Virus record (IMG/VR): IMGVR_UViG_3300045996_000387
Location: 1-21,473 of that record
Source of the DNA: a virus
Direction: 5' to 3' (one strand)
DNA: 21,473 nucleotides
The notes below the pieces were generated by a model. The model searched no databases. It was not told where the DNA came from and saw only the letters and a list, made by a program, of their open reading frames with translations. Shown here one piece after another: positions 8,719 through 17,531 of this stretch (its first letter is position 1; every line of letters starts with the position of its first letter). The position numbers and the translations under genes are program-made.

Positions 8719-8921
8719 GCGATTGCCGCCAGAAGTGCGGGAAACGCTTCCTCCGCATTCGCGCCACTCGGCAAGATAACCGCATTCCTGCGGGGCAGAC
8801 CGTCCCGCCACCCCTGGACCGCCACCCCAATCCTGCAACCCGCGTCGAGGCTCGCGATTTTTACTTCTACATCCGCCATGCCGAGTTGCTCGACAGCGGT
8901 TATGAAGTCTGCCTTGGTCAT
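8715..8921 (-). CDS. Small protein downstream of terminase (68 aa)
   Basis: The start at ATG 8921 forms a TGATG overlap with the TerL stop and the end an ATGA overlap with the next gene, so it is tightly coupled. The protein begins with a short helix (MTKADFITAVEQLGMADVEV), has a Cys/Gly-containing middle and ends in Ala-rich helix (EEAFPALLAAIA). No family or motif is recognised. Such small genes are often inserted between terL and portal in podovirus genomes. Function unknown. Confidence 0.7.
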   Translation of the reverse strand: MTKADFITAVEQLGMADVEVKIASLDAGCRIGVAVQGWRDGLPRRNAVILPSGANAEEAFPALLAAIA

Positions 8922-10387
8922 CAGGCCACCTTCCAATCATCGCTGTCGTTGCGGGTCGGCGCCCACATATCTTTGGGCTTCTGCACGTCTTCGGGTGTCA
9001 CGATTGCCGGATGCGCCTGGTCGATCGCGCGGCCGATAAGGCTGGCGGTATCGACATCGTCATCATGCTTGCCGGCAGGGAACACCAGGAACTCGCCGAG
9101 ATCTGCGTTGGGCTCCAAATACACGCGGCCACTTGCAGCCATCGCCTGAAACGCACGCGCCCGTGTGGGCTTGTCATTGATGCTTGCCAGCCATTCCATC
9201 CGGCAGAAGACCTTGCGCTCCCGCATGCGGCGGGTCAGCATCGGGTCAACCGCCTTCTTGATAACGCCGCTCTCGCCGAACCACGCCAGCGGCTTGTACT
9301 TCGCGATCAGGTCAAGCTTGCGCTCGATCCACACATCCGCGGTCGTTTGTCCTCGCCAACCATCTACCCGATACAGCGCGCCGGATGCGTCGATGCCCCA
9401 CACCCTGTGCACGGTGTAATCGCCGCCGCCGTCCGTCACCGCGTAATCGCTGGTGCCGTAGTAGCGGAGGCTGGGAAGCTCCTCCCACTCCTTGAACCAA
9501 TCGCGCTGGAAGAATGTGCCTTCGTCAGGTTGAGGCTGCTGCTGGTAGAGCGCTGACCATTCACGAGGGCCGATTGTGTCCTTGATGCGCTGCAAAGCCG
9601 GTACGTCATACCATTCTGGCCACAGCGCAGATCCGGATGCGTCAATCGCGGGCAGATCAAGCACAGTCCATTGACCGCCATCCTCAACCCTCCCGTCTTG
9701 TTCGAGCAGGCGCCCGGCAAGGTCGTCCTCGTGCCAGCGTGTCTGGATCAACACGATGGCACCACCCGGCATCAAACGGGTGTAGAAGGTCGAGCGATAC
9801 CAGTTCCAAACCCTGTCGCGCTGAAGCTGACTATCGGCGTCCTGCCGATCCTTGAATGGATCGTCGATCAGCCCGAGATGCGCACCGCGGCCGGTTGTCG
9901 CAGTGCCTACGCCCACAGCGTAATATGCGCCGCCTTGCTCGGTGTTCATCCGATCGGCAGCACGGCTGTCGAGACGCAGGGTCACATCGGGGAAGATCTC
10001 TCCGAACTCGGGAGACGCGATGATCCCCTTCACCTCGCGCCCGAAATCAGTCGCGAGGTCGCTGTTGTAGCTCGATGCGATTATCTGCCGGCCGGGACGG
10101 CGGCCAAGATACCATGACGGGAACCGCTTCGACGCTTTCTCGCTCTTCCCATGCCTCGGCGGCATGAAGACCATGAGGCGGTCGATCTCGCCGGATTCGA
10201 CCCTCTCCAGCTCCCGGTCGAGCAAAGTTTGATGCCGGGCACCCTCATACCCCGGCTGCGTGTAGCTAGTGAACGCTCCCAAGCTGCGGCGCGCCCGCTC
10301 CGCCCTGATCTCCCGAAGCGTCGGCACCCTTTGCGATAAGCTTCTCAAGCGCGTCGAGTTCATCGGCGCTGTAGCCGCTGAGGTCAT
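8921..10387 (-). CDS. terL: Terminase large subunit (packaging ATPase and nuclease)
   Basis: This 488-aa motor protein pumps DNA into the procapsid through the portal and cuts the concatemer. The N-terminal ATPase has Walker A PPRHGKSE (residues 76-83) and Walker B LGLIDDP (171-177). The C-terminal RNase H-like nuclease is intact in outline: D314 in TSDYAVTDGG, E372 in GESG, and D443/D444 in KHDDDVDT. Length fits phage TerL proteins. The ATG at 10387 has GGAGG about 12 nt upstream but overlaps TerS by 122 nt; a TTG at 10282 would reduce the overlap to 17 nt at the cost of about 35 residues. ATPase and nuclease residues are unaffected by this choice. Headful packaging is inferred from the P22-like gene set. 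Confidence 0.93.
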   Translation of the reverse strand: MTSAATAPMNSTRLRSLSQRVPTLREIRAERARRSLGAFTSYTQPGYEGARHQTLLDRELERVESGEIDRLMVFMPPRHGKSEKASKRFPSWYLGRRPGRQIIASSYNSDLATDFGREVKGIIASPEFGEIFPDVTLRLDSRAADRMNTEQGGAYYAVGVGTATTGRGAHLGLIDDPFKDRQDADSQLQRDRVWNWYRSTFYTRLMPGGAIVLIQTRWHEDDLAGRLLEQDGRVEDGGQWTVLDLPAIDASGSALWPEWYDVPALQRIKDTIGPREWSALYQQQPQPDEGTFFQRDWFKEWEELPSLRYYGTSDYAVTDGGGDYTVHRVWGIDASGALYRVDGWRGQTTADVWIERKLDLIAKYKPLAWFGESGVIKKAVDPMLTRRMRERKVFCRMEWLASINDKPTRARAFQAMAASGRVYLEPNADLGEFLVFPAGKHDDDVDTASLIGRAIDQAHPAIVTPEDVQKPKDMWAPTRNDSDDWKVA

Positions 10388-10742
10388 GGCGATGCTGGAC
10401 CTCCCCGCTGTGGTTCACGTCGATCTTGTCGCCGTAGATCTTCGGCAGCCACTTGCCCGCGAGCCTAAGCCGCGTGTCGATACGCACGCGCTTGTCTGCG
10501 ACCTCGACCGCGTCCTTGGCCTTCTCGTCGGCGATTTCGAGACATTGCTCAGCCAAGGCATGAACGCCCTGCGCGCGCGCGGCGCGGAACTGTCCAGCGA
10601 ACTCGGGATCGGCTTCGATCATCTGATAGACGCGAGACCTCGACGGCATGCGCGGGTCCTTGCAGATCGCGAGCAATGCCTTACCGCCCTCAAGCGCTGT
10701 CAGCAGATCGGTAATCTGATCGTCGGCGAACTTGTCAGCCAT
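10266..10742 (-). CDS. terS: Terminase small subunit (Sf6-like)
   Basis: This 158-aa DNA-recognition subunit selects phage DNA for packaging and stimulates TerL. The N-terminal half contains an HTH-like region (ALLAICKDPRMPSRSRVYQM, about 22-41), followed by a helical oligomerisation segment (FRAARAQGVHALAEQCLEIA) and RVRIDTRLRLAGKWLPKIYG (about 86-105), the hallmark of Sf6-type small terminases. The start at ATG 10742 is supported by GAGGAGAT about 5 nt upstream. An in-frame extension to 10925 would run through the intrinsic terminator and is rejected. The gene ends inside terL. As in P22-like phages, the packaging recognition site may lie in or near this gene. Confidence 0.88.
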   Translation of the reverse strand: MADKFADDQITDLLTALEGGKALLAICKDPRMPSRSRVYQMIEADPEFAGQFRAARAQGVHALAEQCLEIADEKAKDAVEVADKRVRIDTRLRLAGKWLPKIYGDKIDVNHSGEVQHRHDLSGYSADELDALEKLIAKGADASGDQGGAGAPQLGSVH

Positions 10743-10826
10743 GACGATCTCCTCGAATATGTCCCGCCCGAGCAACCATCGCGCAGCTTGTGCATCAGTG
10801 CGTCTGCGGAGAGGGGCCGGGCGGGG

Positions 10827-10851
10827 TTCAGCGCAGGGGAAGCGCGCTGAA
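10827..10851. repeat. Inverted repeat upstream of terS
   Basis: Perfect 8-bp arms TTCAGCGC (10827-10834) and GCGCTGAA (10844-10851) flank a 9-bp loop, just downstream of the terminator with respect to leftward transcription and 85 bp before terS. It could be an RNA hairpin, a binding site for a late regulator, or part of the packaging recognition region. No experimental role can be read from sequence alone. Confidence 0.5.
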
Positions 10852-10854
10852 ATG

Positions 10855-10888
10855 AAAAACGGCCCCGGAAGCATGAGCCTCGGGACCG
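10855..10888 (-). terminator. Strong intrinsic terminator of the leftward early operon
   Basis: In the leftward transcript, an 8-bp outer stem (10881-10888 with 10860-10867, one G-U), continued by AGG/CTT pairs beyond a bulge, closes on a short loop and is followed by five T residues (10859-10855). It sits after the 59-aa gene and before terS, so it separates the early/middle operon from the late genes. Late expression therefore needs either antitermination or a promoter between here and terS. Confidence 0.8.
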
Positions 10889-10892
10889 CCTT

Positions 10893-10911
10893 GTTGGCGC
10901 AATTCACCAAC
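10893..10911 (-). other. Second hairpin next to the terminator
   Basis: GTTGGTG and CGCCAAC (read on the minus strand, 10911-10905 and 10899-10893) pair over seven positions with one G-U around AATTG, 5 bp before the terminator stem. There is no T-run. It may pair co-transcriptionally and affect the terminator, as in put- or nut-like RNA elements. That role is a guess. Confidence 0.4.
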
Positions 10912-10955
10912 TTGTGGGATTCCATGCCCGAATTTTCCGGTCACGTCAAGCGCTA

Positions 10956-11135
10956 CTAGTCGATACCTCGACGCATGAGCCGTCTCCACGCATCCGAAGA
11001 GAGGCGCGTGCGTATTGTCCTGGGTGGCAATCCGGCCTCTGGCTTCGGCGTTAGCACCACGCGATCGGCGCTGATGCGGTGCTCGTTCATGTAGCCAGCG
11101 GCGTCGGCCCACTTGGATTTTGGAACGTCGGTCAT
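10956..11135 (-). CDS. Small basic protein upstream of late genes (59 aa)
   Basis: A 59-aa reading frame begins at ATG 11135 with a near-perfect AAGGAGG 4 nt upstream and ends with TAG just before the intrinsic terminator. It is the last gene of the leftward early/middle operon. The protein is basic and Arg-rich toward its end (RTIRTRLSSDAWRRLMRRG, about 40-58), consistent with binding nucleic acid, and begins with KSKWADAAGYMNEHRISADR. No family is recognised. Because it is short it is easy to overlook. Position directly before the terminator makes a part in late gene control or antitermination worth considering; this is inference. Confidence 0.75.
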   Translation of the reverse strand: MTDVPKSKWADAAGYMNEHRISADRVVLTPKPEAGLPPRTIRTRLSSDAWRRLMRRGID

Positions 11136-11152
11136 GCTGCCTCCTTAGCGCA

Positions 11153-11686
11153 TCACGACAACCTCAGATACAGCGCCAGCGCATCCAACCCTTTCCTGAT
11201 CTCCGCCACGTTCCGCATCGCCGCCCGTCCACCATACCGCGGCATGCTGTCGTGGATCAGCAAGCGGTCCATGAAACCCTGCAACTGGTGGGGGATTTGC
11301 GAGCGCATCAGCCGCATCTGGTCTCGGGCCCGGACCTGCGCTTCCTGCCGCGGCAAGCCGAACCCGAATGAACCGGGATGCTCGGCAGCACCTGTTCGCT
11401 CGCCATATGCCGAGACGACCGACAGTGCGAAGTGGCAGCGGGCGTGCGTCTCGCGGTAGTGGTTACCGGCGAACCACTGGATGTAGCTGAGCGAGCCAGA
11501 CCGGTGCAGCCGATCGAGGTGCGTTGCGCGGAACTGCCTGGCACGGCCTTGACGCTCGCCAAGCTTCTCGATGCCGGCGGGAACGATGTCGTTATCCGGA
11601 TCCTTTGCCAGCCGCTCGGGAGTGGCATCCAGACCCGTCACGCCGTGAACAGGGGCGGGCTTTGCTTTGCGCTTCATCCTGGGCAT
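11153..11686 (-). CDS. Candidate late transcription regulator (DUF6456-like)
   Basis: This 177-aa protein starts at ATG 11686, which makes a TGATG overlap with the preceding stop; a longer frame to 11761 is less likely. The N-terminus is basic (MPRMKRKAKPAPVHGVTGLD). After a central RQFRATHLDRLHRSG segment comes AGNHYRETHARCHFALSV (about 72-89) and helices ending in AAMRNVAEIRKGLDALALYL. The pattern of a basic entry, 'AG-x2-YR' and a C-terminal 'GL..LA.YL' helix recalls DUF6456-type proteins common in alphaproteobacterial phages upstream of terS, functional analogues of RinA/ArpU/Q-type late regulators. I cannot confirm the match. The location, last but one before the terminator, supports a late-switch role. 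Confidence in coding is high, in function low. Confidence 0.82.
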   Translation of the reverse strand: MPRMKRKAKPAPVHGVTGLDATPERLAKDPDNDIVPAGIEKLGERQGRARQFRATHLDRLHRSGSLSYIQWFAGNHYRETHARCHFALSVVSAYGERTGAAEHPGSFGFGLPRQEAQVRARDQMRLMRSQIPHQLQGFMDRLLIHDSMPRYGGRAAMRNVAEIRKGLDALALYLRLS

Positions 11687-12033
11687 CAGTCCCACTCCTT
11701 CATTTTCTGCGGGTCCACGAAGAACCCCCAACGACACGCGAGTTTGTCCGCCCAGAACCACTCGTCAGGGATTTCCCGGGCGAGCCGCTGGCGATAGTTT
11801 TCCTTGATCAAAGGCCTGAGTTTCTTGCGGAAAATCGCTAGCCGCCGGGCTTGCACTCGCTCGCGGCGAGCAGCGATGATCCTCGTTGCCCTCTCAAGAT
11901 CACGCGCCCACTCTCGGGCAGCAGCCAACCTCGGGAAGAAGAAATCACGCCAGAGACGAAGCGCGCCGACCACCCCGCACAGGTAGTAGTCGACAAACTT
12001 CAACTCCTCCTCGTGTGGCAGATGCATCGACAC
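11686..12033 (-). CDS. Unknown basic helical protein (115 aa)
   Basis: I place the start at GTG 12033 because GAGG lies 7 nt upstream; an ATG two codons earlier (12039) would be only 1 nt from that element. The protein is helical and strongly basic in the middle (IIAARRERVQARRLAIFRKK, about 50-69), with aromatic residues at both ends (YYLCGVVGALRLWRDFFFP and EWFWADKLACRWGFFVDP). There is no signal peptide or convincing membrane span. It ends in a TGATG overlap with the candidate late regulator. It begins after a 147-bp gap in the operon, so a promoter may exist before it, though I see no good -35/-10 pair. No family recognised. Confidence 0.68.
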   Translation of the reverse strand: MSMHLPHEEELKFVDYYLCGVVGALRLWRDFFFPRLAAAREWARDLERATRIIAARRERVQARRLAIFRKKLRPLIKENYRQRLAREIPDEWFWADKLACRWGFFVDPQKMKEWD

Positions 12034-12180
12034 GTCCATTCCTCATTCTGAGCCCCGTACAGGCCCGTTACGTTTCCACCCTACTCGACCACCAAATTCC
12101 CGCTTTCGTGCCCTGACGGCCTATCCAGCGCAGGATTTGACGGCAGCAAAAGCCTACCCGCGCCTAGTTTGCGCCATCAC

Positions 12181-12474
12181 TCACTCCTGCGCCGGGGGTT
12201 TGGGGGGGGTGGGGGCGGGCGGTATTGCCTCAAGAGACGCGTGCAGCTCTGCCCACCAGCGAGCATGTTCTTCGCGGGCGGCAAGCTGGGCAGGCGTAGG
12301 CGTCCACCAGCCCTCGCCATCGCACCGAGGGCATGTAATCTCGAAGTGGCCACAGCAGCAGAAATCGCCACCGCACTCGCACGCCACCTCACCAAGACCT
12401 TGGCAGCGGTCGCACCACTCCGAGCCCTCGTCCGGCTCTTCGTAATCGAAGTCGGGGTCGCCCATCTCGCTCAC
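12181..12474 (-). CDS. DnaJ-type zinc-ribbon protein with Pro-rich tail
   Basis: The 97-aa protein starts at GTG 12474: AGGAGG sits 5 nt upstream and the GTG overlaps the preceding mini-gene stop as GTGA. The N-terminus is acidic (GDPDFDYEEPDEGSEW). Next comes a cysteine cluster from about residue 21: CDRCQGLG, then CECGGDFCCCGHFEITC and CPRCDGEG, i.e. CxxCxGxG repeats like the DnaJ central domain, predicted to bind zinc. The C-terminus is Pro/Ala-rich (PPAPTPPKPPAQE), encoded by a very G-rich plus-strand tract that can fold as a G-quadruplex. A related CxxCxGxG protein lies in the rightward operon (20582-20944). Function unknown; chaperone-like or nucleic-acid-binding roles are possible. Confidence 0.7.
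   Translation of the reverse strand: MSEMGDPDFDYEEPDEGSEWCDRCQGLGEVACECGGDFCCCGHFEITCPRCDGEGWWTPTPAQLAAREEHARWWAELHASLEAIPPAPTPPKPPAQE
12194..12219 (+). other. G-quadruplex-forming tract
   Basis: Runs of 5, 8, 5 and 3 G separated by TTT, T and C occur on the plus strand, meeting the usual intramolecular G-quadruplex pattern with very short loops. It lies at the 3' end of the zinc-ribbon gene, on its template strand. It could stall replication or transcription and is also prone to slippage during replication or sequencing. Confidence 0.65.
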
Positions 12475-12539
12475 CCCTTCCTCCTGTTCCATGAAGCTGG
12501 CGGGGTCGCCGCCACGATTGCTGCGATGATGGCGGTCAT
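12471..12539 (-). CDS. 22-codon mini-gene linked on both sides
   Basis: A 22-codon frame starts at ATG 12539, overlapping the preceding stop as ATGA, and ends at TGA 12471, overlapping the next start as GTGA. Its 3' end also contains the AGGAGG used by the next gene. The peptide is hydrophobic at the front (TAIIAAIVAATPP) and ends basic (NRRKG), like a very small membrane peptide. It may be a translated coupling element rather than a functional protein. The precise overlaps at both ends are seen directly; the function is unknown. Confidence 0.45.
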   Translation of the reverse strand: MTAIIAAIVAATPPASWNRRKG

Positions 12540-14388: not shown

Positions 14389-14537
14389 CAGGCGACGGGC
14401 GCCCCCGTGAACCGGACACGGCATTCGCGCAGACGGGCAGCTTCCTTCGCACCAGTCGCACGCTTTGCCAGCCGGCTGCGGTCGTAGCGATCGGCGCGGC
14501 GGGCCATTGTCTCGGTGAGGTCAAGCACAGGGATCAT
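14388..14537 (-). CDS. Small basic protein (49 aa)
   Basis: A 49-codon frame starts at ATG 14537 (ATGA overlap with the DnaA-like gene stop) and ends in TGATG with the DUF1064 nuclease start. The peptide is Arg-rich (TMARRADRYDRSRLAKRATG, about 10-29, and EAARLRECRVRFTG), as in small nucleic-acid-binding or spacer proteins. The exact coupling at both ends is the main support that it is a true gene. No family recognised. Confidence 0.62.
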   Translation of the reverse strand: MIPVLDLTETMARRADRYDRSRLAKRATGAKEAARLRECRVRFTGAPVA

Positions 14538-14842
14538 GCTGCGTTGCTCCATTGCTTCAGTTGGGCGGCGGCGAGCGCGAACTCCGCATCCTCATCGAGG
14601 AGACGTTCGTACTCGCTGAGCCCGTGGAGGACGGTGCTGTGGTGACGCTGGGTGAGCCTTCCAATCGCTTGAAGAGTGGCGCTCCGATCCCGCATCAGAC
14701 GCATGACCATATACCGGGCGCGTGCGACCTTGGTGGCGTGGCTCTCGCTGGTCAGGGCCTCCACGGACACGCCCATGACCTTGCTCACTCGCTCGTATAT
14801 CTCGCGAGCGGCGGACATCGGCATCGAAACGCGGCCGCTCAT
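14534..14842 (-). CDS. Stand-alone DnaA domain IV-like protein
   Basis: This 102-aa protein consists essentially of the DNA-binding domain of DnaA. After an N-terminal helix (MPMSAAREIYERVSKVMGVS) it has ATKVARARYMVMRLMRDRSA (36-55), LQAIGRLTQRHHSTVLHGLS (57-76), with HHSTV matching the DnaA signature (D/G)HSTV at the recognition helix. The DnaA AAA+ domain is absent. Such proteins occur in many alphaproteobacterial phages and may mark the phage origin, compete for host DnaA boxes, or act as a regulator. It begins at ATG 14842 overlapping the previous gene as ATGA, and that gene encodes a second, diverged copy of the same fold. Confidence 0.88.
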   Translation of the reverse strand: MSGRVSMPMSAAREIYERVSKVMGVSVEALTSESHATKVARARYMVMRLMRDRSATLQAIGRLTQRHHSTVLHGLSEYERLLDEDAEFALAAAQLKQWSNAA

Positions 14843-15057
14843 TTGTGCCTCGTTAGGGCAGCGCGGACGGTCGAAGGGTCTCGTCCGGTCCACTTCCCGA
14901 TCTGCAGGCTATTGAACCCGTCGTCCTTGAGCCGCTGGAATAGCTTACGGCGCGCGCGCCAGACCACCCGCGAGCGGTGACACGACAGGAGCGCGATAGC
15001 CGGCAAATCATGCTCGGCTGCGATCTCTTCTGCATACTGGCGAACGCGCGGCGTCAT
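14839..15057 (-). CDS. Second, diverged DnaA domain IV-like protein
   Basis: This 72-aa protein has an HTH arrangement closely parallel to its downstream neighbour: [20 protein letters not shown] (24-43) corresponds to the RARY..V.RLMRD helix, and [18 protein letters not shown] (51-68) to the IGRL..(D)HSTV recognition helix, with DPSTV in place of DHSTV. Length is just enough for domain IV. It starts at ATG 15057 with an ATGA overlap with the LexA-like gene and is itself coupled to the DnaA-like gene. The pair looks like an ancient tandem duplication. The absence of the signature His may mean altered DNA specificity. Family assignment is by alignment to the motif, not a search. Confidence 0.78.
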
Positions 15058-16336: not shown

Positions 16337-16659
16337 CAGGCGGCCACCTTCGCTTTGGGTGTGCGCTGCGCAGCAGGAACCATCCTGTGATTGAACAGCC
16401 GGTGTCCCTTCGCGAGCGACAGGATGATTGCGGCGCGCTCAGCCTCGCGGGCATCGGCGAGCGTGTCGTGCTGCGAAACTTCGACGGCCTCGATCACGCG
16501 GGCGTTGCTGGTCAGCCATTCGCGGAACGAGTTGGCCGGCGAGTTGAATGCGTGCGCCAGATGAGTGATCATCCGAACGAAGGGCTCGCGGCTGGTTTGT
16601 CCTATGTAGCGCGGCTCGTTTTCTCCGTGGACACGAAGCGCATAGACCGTCCAAGTCAT
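16336..16659 (-). CDS. GIY-YIG nuclease-family protein
   Basis: This 107-aa protein has the layout of a GIY-YIG domain: VYALRV (5-10) at the 'GIY' strand, RYIGQT (17-22) at the 'YIG' strand, Arg24/Arg29 after it, a Glu in DAREAERAAI (E72/E74) for metal binding, and LFNHR with Asn90. All five core positions are therefore plausibly present, though the first motif is degenerate (VYA). The length is that of a minimal domain without an added DNA-binding part. In phages such proteins range from homing enzymes to DNA processing factors. It is coupled (ATGA at 16659) to the Cro-like gene, so it is among the first proteins made after induction. Confidence 0.8.
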   Translation of the reverse strand: MTWTVYALRVHGENEPRYIGQTSREPFVRMITHLAHAFNSPANSFREWLTSNARVIEAVEVSQHDTLADAREAERAAIILSLAKGHRLFNHRMVPAAQRTPKAKVAA

Positions 16660-16871
16660 GCTGCGGCCTGCTGGTCGGCTTCCGTAGCGACTGCATCAAC
16701 GTCCACGCGCGGCTTCTGCGACTTACCCACGAGGCGCAGGTGAGCCATGCGGGATCGGGGTATGCCGTTCTTCCGCCAGCTATGAACGGTGGAGGGGGGC
16801 GTGTCCGTCAAACGGGACACTGCGGTCGTGCCGCCAAGGGCATCGATAATGAGATCAGCCACGGTCTGCAT
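16656..16871 (-). CDS. Cro-like repressor (carph-isopro/YdaS-type HTH)
   Basis: This 71-aa protein is the first gene of the leftward operon, divergent from the repressor gene, as cro is. Residues 3-48 form an HTH: ADLIIDALGGTTAVSRLTDT, then PPSTVHSWRKNGIPRSRMAH, which is the small YdaS/carph-isopro Cro-like type. The acidic C-terminus (about 52-71) may serve in dimerisation. It probably binds the TGCGA-N3-TCGCA operators beside it and turns down early and repressor transcription. There is no Shine-Dalgarno sequence before ATG 16871, and the predicted transcription start falls at or within 1 nt of this ATG, suggesting a leaderless mRNA. Confidence 0.85.
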   Translation of the reverse strand: MQTVADLIIDALGGTTAVSRLTDTPPSTVHSWRKNGIPRSRMAHLRLVGKSQKPRVDVDAVATEADQQAAA

Positions 16872-16878
16872 GGCTTAG

Positions 16879-16907
16879 AATATGCGACTATCGCACAAAC
16901 AAAGCAA
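16879..16907 (-). promoter_or_regulatory. Leftward early promoter (PR-like)
   Basis: On the minus strand, -35 TTGCTT (16907-16902), 17-bp spacer and -10 CATATT (16884-16879) precede the Cro-like gene. The spacer contains the operator TGCGATAGTCGCA, so repressor binding would block polymerase. The 20-nt core from TTGTGCGA to CATATT is identical to that of the rightward promoter at 17836-17864. Confidence 0.78.
16883..16895. promoter_or_regulatory. Operator OR1 (perfect TGCGA-N3-TCGCA)
   Basis: TGCGACTATCGCA on the plus strand is a perfect 5-bp dyad with a 3-bp centre. On the minus strand it reads TGCGATAGTCGCA, identical to the operator in the rightward promoter. It lies between the -35 and -10 of the leftward promoter. 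Confidence 0.78.
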
Positions 16908-16911
16908 GCGC

Positions 16912-16940
16912 TTTTATGCGATATCCGCGATTGCGATAAT
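16912..16940 (+). promoter_or_regulatory. Probable repressor-gene promoter (PRM-like)
   Basis: TTTTAT (16912-16917), 17-bp spacer and GATAAT (16935-16940) lead rightward to the repressor start at 16965. The -10 has five of six consensus bases, the -35 only three, typical of a promoter that needs activation. The spacer contains a degenerate operator and the -10 lies inside a perfect one, so positive and negative autoregulation are possible. Confidence 0.58.
16917..16929. promoter_or_regulatory. Operator OR2 (imperfect)
   Basis: TGCGATATCCGCG keeps one perfect half-site (TGCGA) and a second half with two changes. Its centre is 34 bp from OR1 and 15 bp from OR3. A weaker site between two strong ones could bind cooperatively and act in activating the repressor promoter. 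Confidence 0.55.
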
Positions 16941-16944
16941 CGCA
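16932..16944. promoter_or_regulatory. Operator OR3 overlapping the repressor -10
   Basis: TGCGATAATCGCA is a perfect dyad that contains the GATAAT -10 of the repressor promoter. Occupation would shut off repressor synthesis, as OR3 does in lambda. Confidence 0.72.
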
Positions 16945-16964
16945 GCGAGCGGCTTGATGGCCGT

Positions 16965-17531
16965 ATGGACCTCCAGCAGATCGATGAATGGGCACGAGCC
17001 AAGCGCGGACGCATAGGCGAGCTGGCGTCCTATCTCGGCCTCGATCCCGATAAGGTTTCGAAAGCGCTATCGGGAAAGCGTAAGTTCACCGTTGTCGAGA
17101 TGGACAAGGCTCGGGAACTGGTGCGCAACTCACTCGGTTTGAATATCTCTGAGGTGCGCTCGATCCCGCTGCTGGGCTCCGTGCCTGCCGGTAGCTGGAG
17201 GGAGGCTGTGCGCAATTCTCGGGGTACGGTCCCCGTCGCAGATGACGGCACTCCGCCCAATGCTTACGCGCTGATCGCAGACGGCGATTCGATGGATCGC
17301 GTAGCCCCGGATGGCTCCACAATCATTGTCGATCCAGACGACCTAGACCTGTACCCGGGGCGCTACTACGTAGTGCGAAACGGAGACGGTGACGCCACCT
17401 TCAAGCAGTTCAAGATGGATCCTGCCCGCCTCGCACCGTGCTCCACGAACTCGGACCACCAAGACATCCTCCTGGGGCGCGACAAGTTCCAGATCGTTGG
17501 GCGCGTAGTCGCGGTGTATAGCCGCCTTTAG
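16965..17531 (+). CDS. CI/LexA-type phage repressor with S24 self-cleavage domain
   Basis: This 188-aa protein is the lysogeny repressor. Residues 14-57 form an HTH (AKRGRIGELASYLGLDPDKV, then SKALSGKRKFT). The linker leads to the cleavage motif IPLLGSVPAGSW with Ala75-Gly76. The S24 protease follows with catalytic Ser109 in ADGDSM and Lys147 in ATFKQFK, ending in VGRVVAVYSRL. All catalytic elements needed for RecA-stimulated self-cleavage, hence SOS induction, are present. I start it at ATG 16965; a longer frame from 16740 would cross the operators and the Cro-like gene. No good Shine-Dalgarno is seen, consistent with low expression. It lies between the two operator-controlled early promoters and converges with the small gene at 17528-17746. 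Confidence 0.93.
   Translation: MDLQQIDEWARAKRGRIGELASYLGLDPDKVSKALSGKRKFTVVEMDKARELVRNSLGLNISEVRSIPLLGSVPAGSWREAVRNSRGTVPVADDGTPPNAYALIADGDSMDRVAPDGSTIIVDPDDLDLYPGRYYVVRNGDGDATFKQFKMDPARLAPCSTNSDHQDILLGRDKFQIVGRVVAVYSRL

Follow-up and report, generated by a model that had tools for sequence, protein, structure and literature searches.

Two genes stand immediately ahead of the late region of the virus analyzed here, which raises the question of which of their products, if either, switches the late genes on. The window, that is, the whole stretch of DNA analyzed, comprised 21,473 bases of an IMG/VR virus record. On its minus strand, a 117-aa gene is followed by a 177-aa gene, a 59-aa gene, a terminator-like hairpin, the terminase genes and then the portal and coat genes. 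A preliminary description had placed the 177-aa and 59-aa genes last before a terminator, and this was confirmed, as the hairpin at 10892-10856 comes next and the terminase genes after it. The phage may be temperate, as suggested by an S24-type repressor gene on the plus strand (16740-17531). A minus-strand ORF of 71 aa, Cro-like by eye, overlaps this repressor gene (region 16656-17531), and a 103-aa protein encoded at 12181-12492 (minus strand) has CxxC motifs and a weak match to DnaJ (E 0.05). The features on which the analysis rests are as follows, L002 and L003 being the two nearest relatives.

11153..11686, minus strand: gene of the 177-aa DUF6456/GafZ-related protein, the proposed late switch (ORF list, profile homology and structure model)
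10956..11135, minus strand: 59-aa basic ORF between the switch gene and its promoter, absent in L002 and L003
10889..10953, minus strand: conserved 65-bp block with the candidate late promoter, 63 of 65 positions identical in L002 and in L003
10944..10949, minus strand: candidate -35 element, TTGACG
10927..10943, minus strand: 17-bp spacer with the imperfect inverted repeat CCGGAAAATTCGG, a candidate binding element of the switch protein by analogy with the Caulobacter ZBE
10921..10926, minus strand: candidate weak -10 element, CATGGA
10893..10911, minus strand: leader RNA hairpin no. 1, its pairing preserved in L002 and L003
10856..10892, minus strand: terminator-like hairpin with a T run, ahead of terS
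10266..10742, minus strand: terminase small subunit gene (terS), Sf6 type, the first late gene (family-library matches)
8921..10387, minus strand: terminase large subunit gene (terL)
14534..14893, minus strand: gene of a DnaA domain IV-like protein (PF08299), a possible GafY-like partner

Both the 177-aa and the 59-aa protein had been put forward as late-switch candidates. The 177-aa protein held up by its homology to DUF6456/GafZ proteins, its conserved promoter-terminator neighbour and its place in related phages, whereas the 59-aa protein, for which no homologue was found and which is absent from L002 and L003, did not. We conclude that the 177-aa protein is probably a GafZ-related late-gene switch analogous to Q, with DNA binding, polymerase binding and antitermination as its presumed activities. 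It would be produced as early transcription ends and recruited to a promoter (TTGACG at 10949) that lies past the end of its own gene, probably via the spacer at 10943-10927, and would join RNA polymerase near the start. The polymerase would then pass the terminator at 10892-10856 into the terS, terL, portal and coat genes. The DnaA-domain-IV protein (14534-14893) may assist in this, in a presumed partnership like that of GafY.

DUF6456 is the annotation of GafA relatives in those parts of the gene transfer agent (GTA) literature that were available, and GafZ corresponds, in Caulobacter, to the C-terminal part of GafA. The available part of PMC11150451 reports that Caulobacter GafZ is an antiterminator with which part of the polymerase passes a terminator, that it associates with elongating polymerase and NusA/E/G, and that it requires a palindrome located between the -35 and -10 elements. 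Its partner GafY is described in the accessible part of PMC9632790 as homologous to DnaA domain IV.

The DUF6456 label given earlier to the 177-aa protein was invisible in direct scans and gained its support through intermediate sequences, so that the HMM search once proposed for this protein failed when run directly but succeeded through intermediate profiles. Scans against Pfam, NCBIfam and PHROG gave no usable match, direct comparison with PF20057 did not reach the Pfam gathering threshold, and tblastn against phage records found nothing at E 0.1. A plasmid search returned a single match (E 4), and a first scan of genome contigs none. When P0002, a homologue of the 177-aa protein, was searched in phage records at E 10, four matches were obtained, of which only that in a Bradyrhizobium phage (E 0.9) was taken further; synteny, and later the profiles, spoke for accepting it. 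Close relatives of the 177-aa protein in IMG/VR numbered three, namely L002 and L003, both on one 86-kb contig, and L004, which is cut by a contig end.

A profile of the window family (A2, four proteins) was then searched in 385 genomes from the class of a Bradyrhizobium genome and had matches at E<=0.01 in eight of them. The one strong match (E 6.9e-11) was an alphaproteobacterial protein that also proved to be DUF6456 (55 bits, above the cut-off) in a separate PF20057 search, in which 26 of 142 genomes had a match. The window profile also matched the protein of Bradyrhizobium phage ppBeUSDA76-2 (E 1.6e-4 within that record), and DUF6456 matched it at 1.1e-5, the 25.9 bits falling 0.4 bit short of the cut-off of 26.3.

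Further support came from a short-type profile that combined 11 short proteins related to DUF6456, one of ppBeUSDA76-2 and ten of bacterial genomes, and excluded the window family; L035, L051 and L052 were omitted for want of a suitable ORF or because of a sigma-like protein. This profile gave the window protein 48.5 bits, compared with 11.5 for the best of 2000 shuffles and 9.1 for the best other ORF of the window. Since two of its members (L018 and P0003) had originally been found through the window family, the search was rerun without them, giving 31.8 bits (best shuffle 12.8); on removal of a third member, a relative of those two, 21.2 bits remained (best shuffle 13.4). In hhalign comparisons, the window family matched the short type at 97.3% (94.3 and 89.8% with the reduced sets), the short type matched the GTA type at 99.7%, and eight terL-linked viral proteins matched the GTA type at 95.7%, whereas all reversed-sequence controls stayed below 0.4%. 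The window family was not detected when compared directly with GTA-type proteins (0.5%), and its link to them is therefore transitive.

A first structure model of the 177-aa protein, made from four sequences, was too poor for use (pLDDT 46.9). The AlphaFold model from 20 sequences, at a pLDDT of 65.9, had the DUF6456 phage protein A0A6J5KP95 at rank 4 in BFVD (prob 1.00, E 4.9e-3, TM 0.49/0.43) and the DUF6456 protein of roseophage RDJL Phi 1 as a weak structural match (E 1.2, prob 0.47). None of the solved structures was similar to the model (VIA Z at most 3.2), a result that excludes no fold. The sequence comparisons support the view that the 177-aa protein is a distant phage relative of DUF6456/GafZ proteins, and the structural match in BFVD adds moderate support. 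The preliminary description had pointed to the position of Q, RinA or ArpU-like regulators; no window protein matched the Q family or RinA/ArpU in Pfam, NCBIfam or PHROG, libraries that presumably contain models of both, and a structural match to Q was likewise not obtained.

The DNA between the two candidate genes and terS carries the second line of evidence. A simple consensus scan of 10200-12200 listed no promoter and missed the hairpin at 10892-10856. The minus-strand RNA 10922-10840 folds into two hairpins, the second of which (10892-10856) ends in a T run; the fold has an energy of -34 kcal/mol, whereas shuffles averaged -24.3 (z -3.5), and one of 200 shuffles was as stable. The 65-bp block was better conserved in L002 and L003 than the 177-aa gene, which is 79-81% identical (Fisher P 4e-4 and 1.5e-4). 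In L002 and L003, the final two codons of the 177-aa gene, immediately before the stop, read TTGACG and belong to this block, whereas the window gene reads TTGTCG there and TTGACG recurs after the 59-aa gene. The 17-bp spacer is identical in the window, L002 and L003; its repeat is imperfect, unlike the Caulobacter palindrome, and the candidate -10 element is a poor match. An exact scan of viral contigs for the promoter block returned only the contig already known. Behind the block, the terminator stems of L002 and L003 differ in sequence and still fold. When the terminase proteins of the window were compared with L002 and L003 by tblastn, nothing matched at E 1e-3, and the sole match of the long terS frame there falls in the leader block. 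Thus, with the block kept while the window terminases are without a match, the gene, promoter and terminator appear to move as one module.

Two further observations concern these loci. L002 and L003 share a contig of 86,291 bases, in which the unit of switch gene, promoter and terminator occurs twice, in diverged form and at a distance of about 44.5 kb, each copy ahead of its own terminase-like genes; the contig is probably either two phages or prophages or a chimeric assembly. In addition, a short inverted repeat starts 37-42 nt past the start of the -35 element in seven of nine promoters (window, at 10911-10893 on the minus strand, L002, L070, L077, L080, L083 and L132). As a common element, this leader hairpin is suggestive at most, as only two of the nine clearly beat shuffles.

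Comparison with known systems brought out both likenesses and differences. In lambda, phage 21 and other phages with related antiterminators, the Q gene ends the early region and is followed by a promoter at its 3' end, a near terminator and the late genes. The window has its gene, predicted promoter, predicted near terminator and late genes in the same order, but its late region opens with terminase rather than lysis genes. With Caulobacter GafZ and the C-terminal part of Rhodobacter GafA, the 177-aa protein shares remote homology via intermediates and a terminator, here a predicted one, downstream of the controlled promoter, and as with GafZ the sequence between -35 and -10 is the likely binding element. 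On the other hand, the window protein has no match to the Pfam model and cannot be aligned directly to GTA-type members, and it is phage-encoded in cis beside its likely target promoter. As for GafYZ, a DnaA-domain-IV protein is encoded in the same element, and its PF08299 match is clear (3.9e-13); however, its gene lies 2.8 kb upstream instead of being adjacent, and the spacer sequence differs. The protein may be a GafY-like partner or another DnaA-like protein. A DnaA-like gene was present in eight of 20 records, the window included, and was not found in 12, several of which are fragments, so that a specific link between this gene and the 177-aa family is compatible with the records and nothing stronger.

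A phage-encoded GafA relative is already in print for roseophage RDJL Phi 1 (PMC6363796). That protein differs in its length of 310 aa and its place near a CtrA-like gene, and the available part of the report describes no role for it at a late promoter or terminator. The accessible part of PMC8601537 reports that gafA (rcc01865) had no match over threshold in a set of Rhodobacter capsulatus phages, which means that the family is not general there. In five bacterial genomes (L018, L055, L058, L059 and L060), a gene related to DUF6456 and one for a repressor of helix-turn-helix plus S24 type are arranged back to back; these pairs recall RogA and gafYZ, and most of the neighbourhoods are poor in phage genes by eye.

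The same arrangement was then sought in related phages. Among the best 80 of at least 599 stretches found by the TerL search, 13 encode a family member ahead of terL and in the same orientation, although L080 and L082 are copies and L079, L130, L081 and L070, the weakest members, joined the family only by iteration. The homologue in ppBeUSDA76-2 lies 555 bp ahead of its terminase gene. The 11-sequence profile is free of the window family and of these loci; at E 1e-3 it picked out seven proteins from non-redundant loci (plus L082), and all seven were within 2.3 kb upstream of terL, a zone chosen after the matches had been inspected and in which 52 of 355 ORFs of that size lay as background. When the reduced profile was used, the seven terL-linked matches dropped to three (L124, L095 and L122). 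Within limits likewise set after inspection, TTGAC occurred between 20 nt ahead of the gene stop and 60 nt past it in eight of 14 non-redundant loci (controls: 119 of 1516 windows, 12 of 168 other stops) and was not beside the gene in the other six, and a terminator-like hairpin followed within 110 nt in five of the 14 (controls: 3 of 420 windows, 8 of 166 other stops), nine failing this criterion. These counts omit L082 (the same gene as L080), L003 (a near copy of L002), the later-found L064 and L066, and, because of its insert, the window itself.

L064 and L066 are the closest TerL relatives of the window among the best 80 loci. They carry the gene farther off in their contigs, ahead of another late-gene stretch; E-values for their proteins are flattered, as the alignment contains a near relative (L065). 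In both, the gene stop lies inside TTGACG. Next come 17 bp of spacer, TATACA and a strong hairpin with its T run; of the late-looking genes beyond, one matches a virion structural family (5e-12), the others being without a telling match. An order of gene, predicted promoter, predicted terminator and late genes thus recurs in several divergent relatives.

NusG-domain proteins occupy the same place in other related phages. At least 2.5 kb of upstream sequence was available for 44 of the best 80 TerL loci (two pairs of which, L080/L082 and L071/L073, are copies): 11 had a family member, 10 a NusG-domain protein, none had both, and the remaining 23, including L064 and L066, showed neither one there. 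The NusG-domain proteins are encoded on the terL strand, about 0.8 to 3.7 kb upstream, and were seen in L069, L071, L072 and L100 and also in L114, L117, L128, L133 and L135. The domain in L071 and L072 was detected by hmmscan and not by the genome search, and that of L073 was counted from its translation, which is identical to L071; L090 looked NusG-like by eye, but hmmscan gave no match. Like the gene of the 177-aa protein, their genes precede terL in the same orientation, here in related phages; the proteins differ in belonging to another family, no NusG domain being matched in the window record. Paralogues of NusG are known elongation factors, and this supports the place upstream of terL as one for such factors, a conclusion weakened by the looser NusG distances.

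The main rival is that the 177-aa protein acts as an initiation activator at the late promoter, with DNA binding like that of sigma region 4, while the terminator merely ends early transcription. The poor -10 element of the window is typical of activated promoters, and the available part of PMC6363796 notes that the C-terminus of GafA resembles sigma factors and that GafA was initially put forward as a possible alternative sigma factor. However, in the window, L002, L003, L064, L066 and L079 the candidate promoter is followed by a terminator-like hairpin, so that activated initiation by itself would fall short of the late genes. The NusG-domain proteins upstream of terL in related phages, from a family that includes known elongation factors, argue in the same direction. 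We therefore consider pure activation unlikely, though it deserves more weight than any other alternative to an antiterminating switch.

It is quite improbable, in our judgement, that the 65-bp block serves packaging (as pac/cos) or the binding of TerS instead of being a promoter. Its position directly ahead of terS would fit such a role, but L002 and L003 retain the block next to terminase genes unmatched by those of the window, and in L064 and L066 the order of gene, promoter and terminator is found about 5 kb away from terS.

The 59-aa gene had drawn attention through its ribosome site, and this part of the preliminary description was accurate, since AAGGAGG, 4 nt before the ATG, is the longest Shine-Dalgarno match among 29 genes. 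Its GC3 of 0.72 lies within the range of the 29 tabulated genes (0.66-0.87), as does that of the 177-aa gene (0.78). The 59-aa protein contains nine Arg and three Lys and has a pI of 10.8, but the 177-aa protein is as basic (pI 10.7), so ribosome site and charge do not single out the smaller one; the 177-aa gene is itself preceded by AAGGAG, 8 nt from its start. Scans of the 59-aa protein against Pfam, NCBIfam and PHROG gave nothing usable, and tblastn found no relative in phage records, plasmids or the fetched TerL-related loci. A pattern-based scan of IMG/VR and the 385-genome search, both blunt for so short a protein, also returned no homologue. In the window, the gene sits exactly between the 177-aa gene and the 65-bp block, whereas L002 and L003 retain the 177-aa gene, promoter and terminator without it. 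It looks like an insert between the switch gene and its promoter, the direction of the event being presumed; it may be a young gene, or its product a modulator. That this protein is the antiterminator of new type proposed earlier is therefore very improbable: it is encoded last before the promoter and terminator, behind a strong ribosome site, but no search found a homologue and it is missing from L002 and L003, where the rest of the unit persists.

The reading that we prefer thus remains a GafZ-related 177-aa switch acting from a promoter beside its own gene. No description of a GafZ-type phage late switch was found in the literature searched, in which coverage of subscription papers was thin. 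We see an even chance that phages, apparently of alphaproteobacteria, use GafZ-type, promoter-loaded late antiterminators beside Q and NusG-like ones, interchangeable at one genomic place, and that the GTA regulators GafY and GafZ are a domesticated form of them. With gene, promoter and terminator in one compact cis unit, both the late switch and this origin of GafY and GafZ would be testable by a simple reporter, and the small proteins and short DNA may serve structural work on GafZ-type antitermination.
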